Source of the DNA: Candidatus Geocrenenecus huangii
GTDB lineage: Archaea > Thermoproteota > Nitrososphaeria_A > Caldarchaeales > Wolframiiraptoraceae
Direction: 5' to 3'
Assembly: GCA_023268155.1 (NCBI GenBank)
Contig: JALNKM010000002.1
Coordinates: 186,001 to 250,000 of the forward strand
Length of the DNA stretch: 64,000 nucleotides
The notes beneath the pieces were generated by a model that did not search any database, was not told the DNA's origin, and saw nothing but the letters and a program-made list of their open reading frames with translations. This document shows positions 1-4,961 of the stretch, piece by piece. The stretch's first letter is position 1. Each line of letters starts with the position of its first letter. The translations under genes were made by a program, and so were the position numbers.

Positions 1-177
1 GTGAGGAAGATTTCCAGGGATGTAATCTGAACGCATAACTTGCCTATCTTTGAAGATTTTAGGTCTCTGTAAAGCCTTATTAACAACGTCCCGTAAAGGA
101 TCCTCCAAACCCCTTTTGTTCAAGTGGAGATAAGCCTCCTGAAGATGAATATTCTTGCTTATTGTAGATTTTTTCAA
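1..177 (-). CDS. cdc6: Orc1/Cdc6 replication initiator, N-terminal fragment (cut by window edge)
   Basis: Only the first 59 codons lie in the window; the rest runs off its left edge. The frame is open throughout and ends in the segment SDYIPGNLPH, preceded by KIFKDRQVM. This matches the N-terminus of archaeal Orc1/Cdc6 proteins, where a short leader is followed by a 'xxxFxxxxvLxxDYvPexLPHR' segment just before the AAA+ ATPase domain. Those proteins bind origin DNA and load the MCM helicase. I chose the TTG start at 177 because a GGAGG sits seven bases upstream of it. The gene points away from the putative origin at 181-952, the usual arrangement for an origin-linked cdc6. The ATPase motifs themselves are outside the window, so the call rests on the N-terminal motif plus the origin boxes next door. 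Confidence 0.72.
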   Translation of the reverse strand, partial: MKKSTISKNIHLQEAYLHLNKRGLEDPLRDVVNKALQRPKIFKDRQVMRSDYIPGNLPH

Positions 178-297
178 GTTCTAGCCTCCAACAGATAGTT
201 CTTTCAAAGATTTTAGAATCTGATCCATTAATTTTCTGTACCTCTTGTACTATTCTCCCAAAGATGTATTTTCATACGGTATATCTATGGTTGAATA

Positions 298-322
298 TTC
301 TCCAATGGAAATAGTGGGGTGG
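298..322 (+). promoter_or_regulatory. Origin recognition box (ORB) copy 1
   Basis: The core TCCAATGGAAATAGTGGGGT (301-320) has the two parts of an archaeal ORB: a TCCAxTGGAAA dyad and a following G-run of four bases and T. It matches copy 2 at 17 of 20 core positions. In known ORBs Orc1/Cdc6 contacts the dyad through its winged helix and the G-run through its ATPase domain. Confidence 0.6.
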
Positions 323-467
323 ATGAGTGTTTCTCTAGCTTTCCACTATGATATCTACTCTTCACAGATTGTTAAAGGGATTGTAGTATCAAGGCCAGAG
401 AAGCTTTATTCTAGCTCCTCTAGGATGGAAAGCCGCTATATTGAGTTTCTTCACAGGAAATCTGGCT

Positions 468-492
468 AACCCCTCTCTTTCCACTGGAAAAC
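468..492 (-). promoter_or_regulatory. Origin recognition box (ORB) copy 2
   Basis: Read on the minus strand the core is TCCAGTGGAAAGAGAGGGGT, an excellent match to the archaeal ORB consensus (dyad plus G-run). It is inverted relative to copy 1, so the two boxes point at each other, as at several characterised archaeal origins where the intervening AT-rich DNA is unwound. Confidence 0.65.
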
Positions 493-952
493 AGTTATCT
501 TCTAAAGTATATCGGGCTAGCTACATGTGAAAAATACCAAATCCGAATCAAGAGCATAGCTTGAGATTAATACCCATGCATGTAAGCCTCTTCTTCTTAT
601 CATTTATTAAAAAGATAGGTTTGAACATGTCAATGGAGATACTCAAAATATGGTTATGAACTTTGGCCACTCTTCTTACATGCTCTTTCTTCAACATTTC
701 ACGTATAGTTGAACGTCCTAGCTTGAGCATATCGGAACATATACCACCAGCTTACTCATTCGATACTTTTGGTAGACATTCATGTAGATTTCTTCACTAA
801 TTTTTCTGCGTCTTCCTAGCTCTCTTTAATATTAATCTTAACTTGGTTCAAGATATATTCCACAATTGGGTGTCGTAGTAGATAAGTAATTGATATTATT
901 GTTCTGATGTGGCCATTACGGAGACGGAATATGTGCTACTATACGTGTATTC

Positions 953-1330
953 CTAACTTTCTTCTTCTCTTAGAAGCTTTCTTACTTTAAGTGTTTGTTC
1001 AAGGGTCTTAAGCAATATTTCAAGGGTCTCGGAAAGTCTCTTTACTTCGTCCACCTCGACCGCTCTAGAGAGGAGTATTGTTAATTCTTCTATCTTTACC
1101 GCTAATGTCGACGCAGTAATCGTTAATGTGTAAACTGATAATGCTTGACCAACTTCTTCATCGGACTTGACTTTCACCACTCTTTTATTACATCTTAGAC
1201 ACCATAGCTCTTCCTTTATCTCGAAGATGGGGCTCCCGCATATAGGACAGTGTTCAGAGAGCATCTTGGCCCCACTTCTCAAAGCATTCGTCATCCTCTT
1301 CATGTAATCGTCATCACTCTTCTCGACCAT
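953..1330 (-). CDS. UPF0148 family zinc-ribbon protein
   Basis: A 125-residue protein with a four-cysteine zinc ribbon near its N-terminus: CPIC at residues 28-31 and CLRC at 44-47, with the intervening segment typical of the archaeal UPF0148 family, which is related to the eukaryotic autoantigen p27 (SSSCA1). The C-terminal 70 residues are predicted helix with heptad-like leucines, suited to self-association. The molecular role of the family is not established; a scaffold or RNA-linked role is only a guess. The gene faces the origin region and is followed downstream by nothing on the same strand for several hundred bases. Confidence 0.8.
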   Translation of the reverse strand: MVEKSDDDYMKRMTNALRSGAKMLSEHCPICGSPIFEIKEELWCLRCNKRVVKVKSDEEVGQALSVYTLTITASTLAVKIEELTILLSRAVEVDEVKRLSETLEILLKTLEQTLKVRKLLREEES

Positions 1331-2585: not shown

Positions 2586-3692
2586 TTGATTATACGTCAA
2601 GTCAATCCATTGAAAAGGTTTATCATGGTACTTCCCGAGAATACTCTAGATTTACTGAATATCTTCAGGCTGGTCAGCATAGGAGATGTAATGTACTCTG
2701 AGACTAATAGAGAAATCAAGAAAGAGCGTGCAGACGGTAGATTTGATAGTGAAAGGGTGTCTGTAACGTTTGGGATAATGGTTGAGAAAAAGTTTGTCGA
2801 TCCTCTACTTAGGAGAATAAGCTTCACCGGCCGGATAGTCTATGAAAGTAGAGAATTAGACTTAGTTGGGAAGTATCATACGGTCCACGTAGTTCCAGGT
2901 GTAGAGTTAAAGATAGAGAGCAGGGAGAGATTCGATAGGCTTTACTCCTTTTCTCTAAACTATTCAAGAAGGAGGAGTAGAAGGATTATATGTATAACAT
3001 TAGACAATGAGGGAGTCGCCGTCTCAGAGTTCAGCAACTTAGGGTTAAGAGTGCTCTACTCTAAGAACATCCCTTCTAGAACGAAGATGTATGAAGAATT
3101 CGTTGAGGACTCAACGTATGAAGTATTCGATGAGGTGGTTAAGCTAATGCAAGGTATTCTGAAAGAAGATAAAGATGTGGATATAGCCCTATTGGGCTCA
3201 AGTATTAGCGTTGAGAAATTCGTTGGGTATCTAGGAAGGAAGAATGCAAAGAATGTATTGGAGAAGATCAAGAAGAAAGGGTATACTTCCTTGGGTAGAG
3301 AAGAAGGACTAAGAGAGGCTCTTAGAAGTGGAGAACTAAGAGAGTATGCTGAAGAACTTAAACCAGTAAAAGACTCCATAGAAGTTGAAAACTTTATTCG
3401 GGAGATGTCTGGGAACCCTGAGAAAGTCGCGTTAGGGTTGAAGGAAGTCTTAGAGGCAGCTAAGATGAAGGCTGTTGAGAAGGTGCTTATCTCGGAGAGC
3501 TTCCTATGGGAGAACATTATAGACGAGCGGTTATCATCTCTACTTGACGAAGCTGAACATGGAAGAATAAAGTTAAGAGTTATACTAAATGGTTTAGAAG
3601 CCTCTGATAAAATACGTGGTCTAGGAGGAATAGTGGCCACATTACGTTATCCTCTTAGACTTTCCGAAATAGAGAAGGATGGCGAATCCTAG
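2586..3692 (+). CDS. pelA: Pelota (Dom34-like mRNA surveillance factor)
   Basis: At 368 residues this matches archaeal Pelota in length and layout: an N-terminal Sm-like domain (about 1-130, with the RLVSIGDVMYSETNREIK segment), a central eRF1-domain-2-like region and a C-terminal eRF1-domain-3-like part. As in the family, the GGQ motif of release factors is absent. Pelota works with aEF1A or ABCE1 to rescue stalled ribosomes. The start is TTG. Two genes flank it divergently or convergently, so it is probably transcribed alone. Confidence 0.88.
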   Translation: MIIRQVNPLKRFIMVLPENTLDLLNIFRLVSIGDVMYSETNREIKKERADGRFDSERVSVTFGIMVEKKFVDPLLRRISFTGRIVYESRELDLVGKYHTVHVVPGVELKIESRERFDRLYSFSLNYSRRRSRRIICITLDNEGVAVSEFSNLGLRVLYSKNIPSRTKMYEEFVEDSTYEVFDEVVKLMQGILKEDKDVDIALLGSSISVEKFVGYLGRKNAKNVLEKIKKKGYTSLGREEGLREALRSGELREYAEELKPVKDSIEVENFIREMSGNPEKVALGLKEVLEAAKMKAVEKVLISESFLWENIIDERLSSLLDEAEHGRIKLRVILNGLEASDKIRGLGGIVATLRYPLRLSEIEKDGES

Positions 3693-3809: not shown

Positions 3810-4961
3810 CTATAGTCTACTGGATATTAACATGTGGACTCTCGGTGATGGATTTACGATGTCTCCTAGTCTAACCCCTATCATGTATACGTCTCTAGGA
3901 GCGTCTGAAAGTATATCTACTAGACGCTGTGTTATTATTCCATCGAAGACCACGTATTTTACATCATTCTTCAATTCCTGTAGTTTCTGAGCAAGCTCGC
4001 TTACAGGCACTCTAGCAAGCTCTACCAGGTCTTCATTCAACAGTATCGATACTAGTTTCCCATCAACTTCTTTTACATACTCCTTTATCTGTGAGGGTAC
4101 TTCTACCTCTTCTGGTTTAGGTTTTATCTTCATGTTTTTTAATATCTCCTGTATTTGGACAGCTTTCTGAAATGATTCGAATATCTCCTTCCCCGTTAAT
4201 TCTTCAACTTCTTTTCCATGAGGTGCTCTAGCTACTTGGTCTATCTTAATATTCATTCTGATGAGCTCACTGAGTATCATATCTCCTCCTCTATCCCCAT
4301 CTAGGAATGCGATTACCTTCTTCTTCTTACTTGCTAGAGACTCGATAGTTTTAGGAATCTTTACTCCTTCAACAGCAACTACATTCTTAAACCCATGTCT
4401 AAGTAAGTTTATAACATCAGCACGTCCCTCAACTATGATCAATTCATCACTTAATTCAACTTCCGGCCCTGCCGGAAGCTTCTCAGGGCCATACTCTATT
4501 ATTTTCGCCTTCAGTACTGTTTCTTCTAGCTCCTTCAGTAGCTGGTCGTCTTCGGGGATTTTGCTCTTCTCCCAATCATAAAGTATCGCTCTGGCTCTTT
4601 CAAGTATCTTCTTTTTCTTTTCCGCTCTCACGTCTTCTATCTTCTCGATCTTTGTTCTAGCTTGGTATGGTCCTACCCTATCAACGCTCTCAACCATGGC
4701 CGCTATCAGGGCTGTTGCATACTTATCCAGTGCAGATGGTACGGTGATTCTCCCAATTGTTTTATCTCCATGTGCGTTTGTATGGATCTCTATTCTACCT
4801 ATTCTTCCAGCTTTCTGAAGTTCTCTAAGGTCTAGGTCGCTACTGAATAACCCCTCCGTTTGACCGAAGATCGCTCCAACGATATCATTTCTATCAACTA
4901 TGCCATCTACCTCTATTCTGGCTTCAACAATATATTTTATAGTTGGTGGCCCTGTACTCAA
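3810..4961 (-). CDS. dnaG: Archaeal DnaG-like primase (Toprim domain)
   Basis: A 383-residue archaeal DnaG. The N-terminal domain is the archaeal type (GAIFGQTEGLF at about 28-38). The Toprim domain follows, with the catalytic glutamate in LIIVEGRADV (about 174-183) and the acidic cluster LDGDRGG (about 220-226). The bacterial zinc finger is missing, as expected. In archaea this protein is found with the exosome and has primase activity. The C-terminal third is less conserved. The start is TTG with GGTGA about eight bases upstream; the alternative start is not evident. It converges on the pelA gene. Confidence 0.92.
   Translation of the reverse strand: MSTGPPTIKYIVEARIEVDGIVDRNDIVGAIFGQTEGLFSSDLDLRELQKAGRIGRIEIHTNAHGDKTIGRITVPSALDKYATALIAAMVESVDRVGPYQARTKIEKIEDVRAEKKKKILERARAILYDWEKSKIPEDDQLLKELEETVLKAKIIEYGPEKLPAGPEVELSDELIIVEGRADVINLLRHGFKNVVAVEGVKIPKTIESLASKKKKVIAFLDGDRGGDMILSELIRMNIKIDQVARAPHGKEVEELTGKEIFESFQKAVQIQEILKNMKIKPKPEEVEVPSQIKEYVKEVDGKLVSILLNEDLVELARVPVSELAQKLQELKNDVKYVVFDGIITQRLVDILSDAPRDVYMIGVRLGDIVNPSPRVHMLISSRL

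Follow-up and report, generated by a model that had tools for sequence, protein, structure and literature searches.

The DNA beside the initiator gene orc1-1 of Candidatus Geocrenenecus huangii can be assigned with considerable confidence to the oriC1 type of replication origin, in which the Orc1-1 protein would bind three ORB boxes (A, B and C), with boxes B and C as the core and box C embedded in orc1-1 itself; it is very probably the start site of chromosome replication. The origin would be of an ordinary archaeal kind, adjacent to orc1, but of unusual build, in that a core box is embedded in the initiator gene throughout the order, and TTCACA elements are phased around box A. It lies at the left end of the window, the 64,000-nucleotide stretch that was analysed (G000:C12:186001-250000), within a hot-spring archaeon's genome of 1,697,407 bases (1.70 Mb) in 21 contigs, of which contig C12 accounts for 268 kb. 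Geocrenenecus is placed under Wolframiiraptoraceae in NCBI, a lineage of the Caldarchaeales (synonym Aigarchaeota). The features of the locus, in window coordinates, are:

1-177, minus strand: 5' end of orc1-1/cdc6, the gene running on leftward to C12:184861.
110-127, minus strand: ORB box C, within the orc1-1 coding sequence (codons 18-23), with 2 mismatches to CCANTGGAAANNNNGGGG.
128-301, no strand: predicted DNA unwinding element, bounded by boxes C and B, with its AT peak at about 200-270; it includes the orc1-1 promoter and start codon.
236-241, minus strand: possible TATA element of orc1-1 (GTACAG), suggested by the genus alignment and offsets.
302-319, plus strand: ORB box B (CCAATGGAAATAGTGGGG), an exact match.
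361-366, no strand: TTCACA element 1, 118 bases from the box A centre, in fixed phase in relatives.
450-455, no strand: TTCACA element 2, 29 bases from the box A centre, in fixed phase in relatives.
470-487, minus strand: ORB box A (CCAGTGGAAAGAGAGGGG), an exact match.
526-531, no strand: TGTGAA element 3, across box A from elements 1 and 2.
953-1330, minus strand: gene for a small zinc protein (Pfam PF06677), the boundary of the origin on its other side and the same neighbour in 29 of 41 relatives.

The initial annotation had taken window 1-177 for the start of Orc1/Cdc6, and leftward extension of this minus-strand fragment bears it out. The complete ORF (C12:184861-186177), with the translation start taken as the predicted TTG at 177, encodes 438 amino acids, and its product exceeds the Pfam cut-offs for Cdc6_C, Cdc6_lid and AAA_22, as well as scoring 405.8 bits against TIGR02928 (cut-off 181.3). 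The closest solved structure is Sulfolobus Cdc6-1, or Orc1-1 (2qby_A, 1.3e-109), with Cdc6-3 far behind (2qby_B, 1.8e-52), and the C-terminal winged-helix region is alignable. The two nearest named records come from Candidatus Geocrenenecus arthurdayi (82% identity) and a Nitrososphaerales MAG (86%). A gene of the Orc1-1 type thus adjoins the putative origin, as orc1-1 does in the oriC1 of Sulfolobus and Saccharolobus (Orc1-1, ORB1-3, DUE and ucm), and we infer from this orthology that Orc1-1 binds the boxes. An ORF at 548-730 on the minus strand was rejected as a gene, having neither a family match nor a counterpart in relatives.

Boxes A and B had been described as near-identical inverted ORBs, and they do match at 17 of the 20 positions of TCCANTGGAAANNNNGGGGT. 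The same annotation had asked whether their core is clustered or scattered. Across the whole genome, CCANTGGAAANNNNGGGG, with its 13 specified bases, has only two exact matches, which are boxes A and B, against about 0.02 expected from an estimate based on base composition. Hence the core is confined to this locus rather than scattered over the genome, and the finding stands. An ORB profile was also trained on 79 A and B boxes from 41 genomes of the same order, including this genome's own A and B and leaving out its box C. Scanned over the 268 kb contig, it scored A at 34.4 bits, B at 32.8 and the held-out C at 19.2, the fourth-best site reaching 9.6, such that several ORBs with a dyad and G-run cluster at this locus and not elsewhere. 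The partial copies previously reported between boxes A and B could not be recovered, as the profile gives no further site of at least 8 bits in that interval. The form of the box is that of the Sulfolobus and Saccharolobus ORB, with TCCAGTGGAAA plus GGGGT, and is nearly identical to that of the Methanomassiliicoccales, GTTCCAGTGGAAATGG-AGGGGT (PMC4153887), although the latter are reported either upstream of orc1/cdc6.1 or downstream of it, and none within it (PMC4153887).

Box C was overlooked by the initial annotation, and was found by a genome search for CCANTGGAAANNNNGGGG allowing two mismatches. It occupies a codon-locked position within orc1-1 in 41 of 41 Caldarchaeales genomes, counts that are not independent since these genomes are mutually related, and in each of them it tops all other scanned positions of the same gene (lowest box C, 7.7 bits; highest other site, 5.4 bits). 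The profile detected no such box at the coding start of any of 40 outgroup orc1-1 genes, the best score being -5.0 bits. The in-frame pattern is CAN-TGG-AAA-NNN-NGG-GGT, and the peptide here would read ...H-L-N-K-R-G... if translated from the TTG at 177. The box is degenerate in some members of the order, notably part of family f4, with the CC half lost in three of eight genomes (L044, L046 and L047) and scores of only 7.7 to 15.7 bits in L043-L047.

Conservation of this stretch for the sake of the protein, as a K-x-R-G motif, or of translation, as an internal Shine-Dalgarno-like GGGGTG, is most unlikely to account for it instead, even though the lysine and glycine of the peptide are conserved and GGGGTG is similar to a portion of the ribosome-binding site of archaea. 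The glycine codon is GGT in all 41 genomes, while GGT makes up 308 of the 1200 glycine codons (26%) in these orc1-1 genes, and the other conserved four-fold columns reach at most 78% of one base, most lying at 30%-55%. Furthermore, the preceding residue varies (R, W, S, G or T), yet its codon always ends in G. Selection on the protein cannot give this pattern; taking 13 genera as units, which are not fully independent, the chance of uniform GGT is 0.257^13, or about 2e-8. As for translation, box C is not followed on its 3' side by a start codon at any constant spacing. A start codon lies 5' of the box in each of the 41 ORFs, and many have none between it and the conserved DPL segment (e.g. L009, L012, L017, L026, L029 and L032-L034). 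The same motif is, moreover, intergenic in outgroups, at the B-C spacing. Box C is under selection at the DNA level, inside protein-coding sequence; a search of the open-access literature found no report of an ORB within a coding region.

The arrangement as a whole is conserved across the order. The three boxes stand at matching places in the 41 relatives, with orientations +/-/+ in almost all. Measured from the conserved YxPxxLPHR codons, the usual positions are about -460 for A, about -280 for B (-) and -100 for C (+). Some genera place A and B at other distances (B being near -232 in family f2), and box C shifts only in whole codons, to -97, -94 or -103. The upstream regions of orc1-1 from 40 genomes of other families of the phylum served as outgroups, and 17 of them, from seven families (f5, f12, f14, f20, f23, f26 and f34), have exactly +,-,+ boxes. 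These origins share the boxes, their order and polarity, a similar B-C spacing and an AT-rich core with the locus here, and most have TTCACA elements, but box C is intergenic in 17 of 17, with an in-frame stop between it and the gene, and lies at -152 to -304. Family f21, which we take to be the Sulfolobaceae, differs in another way: its boxes are -,+,+ and all upstream of the gene, with the (-,+) pair at the place of unwinding pointing outward, in keeping with the published ORB3-DUE-ORB2 core (PMC12141716), whereas at the present locus they run +,-,+ and the one nearest the gene falls within it. The boxes, their uniqueness, their order-wide conservation and the outgroup state are established computationally. 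Hence the orc1-1 frame appears to have grown over an older intergenic ORB, and it is most parsimonious that it came to cover this ancestral box in the ancestor of the Caldarchaeales, either through a shift of the start codon or through a deletion of about 100 bp.

The facing boxes of the origin had been identified as A and B. Both are real and inverted, but it is B and C that flank the predicted unwinding element. Firstly, the B-C interval is AT-richer than that between A and B, both here (0.68 versus 0.60) and in 37 of 40 relatives (means of 0.653 versus 0.577), as well as in 16 of 17 outgroups. Secondly, its spacing in outgroups is the steadier of the two (168-211 versus 135-349). Thirdly, the G-runs of B and C point outward, and those of A and B inward; in Sulfolobus oriC1, the inverted ORB2 and ORB3, each individually required, flank the unwinding element, at the edge of which replication starts (PMC12141716). 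The B-C pair, likewise inverted around an AT-rich element, has the polarity of Sulfolobus ORB3-DUE-ORB2. Together these features place the predicted element at window 128-301, with unwinding expected at about 130-300 and not between A and B. A geometry in which A and B flank the unwinding site and C is accessory could appeal to A and B being the strongest boxes, and to an A-B interval that is also AT-richer than the gene; nevertheless it is unlikely, as base composition, spacing and the outward polarity of the Sulfolobus core all favour B and C. Four congeners have TATAAT or TATATT at offsets -219 to -213, and this TATA-like sequence within the B-C interval suggests that the promoter of the initiator and the site of unwinding coincide.

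With its promoter between B and C, both the binding of Orc1-1 and the opening of the origin should affect transcription of orc1-1, and autoregulation of this gene is likely. The boxes might then be nothing but operators through which Orc1-1 represses its own gene, with replication starting elsewhere, for instance at the second cdc6 locus of this genome:

G000:C7:38031-39125 (L004:8022-9197): second cdc6 paralogue (cdc6-2), with two RFC-like genes next to it on the other strand.

This is very unlikely. The whole-genome search placed every exact ORB at the orc1-1 locus and none near cdc6-2, and the one candidate for an ORB cluster near cdc6-2 was dismissed: in a 19 kb stretch there was a single site of 15.8 bits, at a distance of about 9.5 kb, which was taken as chance. 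An array of three sites spanning about 380 bp, AT-rich at its core, exceeds the needs of an operator and is the published form of oriC1. The same type of site beside orc1-1 is an active origin in Sulfolobus (PMC12141716). On contig C12, cumulative GC skew declines as far as about 192 kb and climbs again beyond 232 kb, giving a shallow minimum that lies 6-45 kb from the putative origin (186 kb) and is loosely consistent with it; evenly sampled skew in a relative assembled as one contig (G024) has no minimum at orc1-1. The earlier description of an active oriC holds for an ORB origin adjacent to orc1-1, with a core exact only here and an arrangement that is order-wide, while we infer, rather than observe, its activity.

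In addition to the ORBs, TTCACA, or its complement TGTGAA, is, judged from its placement, a second and previously undescribed phased origin element, recurring at fixed positions around box A. It is present between boxes A and B in 33 of 36 relatives, where shuffled sequences would yield 3.0, and in 14 of 19 outgroups, where 2.9 would be expected. Its positions relative to A are mostly +20 to +40, +80 to +130 and -80 to -40, with a further group at -360 to -220, and its rate drops nearly to zero between +140 and +640, a span that covers the B-C interval and reaches into the gene. The pair CTGTGAA-N{76,88}-CTGTGAA has two occurrences in the genome, one of them here. That the element is the autoregulatory site of the second Cdc6 was considered and dismissed: the 900 bases upstream of 21 cdc6-2 loci hold scattered single copies and no palindrome, and promoters lacking a TTCACA cluster leave the element unexplained in this way. 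The oriC1 core of the Sulfolobus type has a ucm motif in its DUE; the motif that recurs beside the ORBs here is TTCACA. The study of the Sulfolobus factor UBP left open whether archaea beyond the Sulfolobales and Desulfurococcales have such factors (PMC12141716), and the TTCACA element points to a further origin factor.

These features suggest a mechanism. Orc1-1, encoded alongside, would bind the three ORBs, A (470-487, minus), B (302-319, plus) and C (110-127, minus). Boxes B and C, back to back with G-runs outward around the AT-richest segment, would load two MCM helicases onto it, in the manner of Sulfolobus ORB3 and ORB2, with box A as an auxiliary site that possibly helps in recruitment or regulation. 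In the Caldarchaeales ancestor, the coding sequence would have extended over a formerly intergenic ORB, such that the same DNA specifies both an extension of the protein and a binding site for the initiator. It is a tentative proposal, and one we hold to be possible rather than probable, that the whole order has thereby fused its origin with the initiator gene, an essential core ORB lying in the orc1-1 frame, that opening of the origin couples initiation to the supply of initiator, and that a second factor reads the TTCACA array. If so, replacing the coding start of the initiator would break the origin. The locus also presents a putative binding site for the initiator that is selected both as DNA and as protein, within the initiator's own gene, and this makes it a natural test of the coupling between expression and firing. 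Only a few model archaea have known origins, and searches of the open-access literature for origin papers on Caldiarchaeum or Aigarchaeota, and for a published origin in the Caldarchaeales, found none; the present map of such an origin is precise and testable.

Two further observations concern the surroundings of the boxes. In six relatives (L010, L011, L013, L018, L021 and L037), a fourth ORB in the opposite orientation lies 20-31 bases from box A, forming a close inverted pair with it. Around the origin there is also a replication gene neighbourhood, comprising a DnaG-type primase (window 3810-4961, minus strand) and a pelota-like protein (window 2586-3692, plus strand; 109.7 bits, under the cut-off of 177.65), both less than 5 kb from the origin, and, 3' of orc1-1 on the same strand, a putative gene for the DNA polymerase D small subunit (L003:7239-8723).
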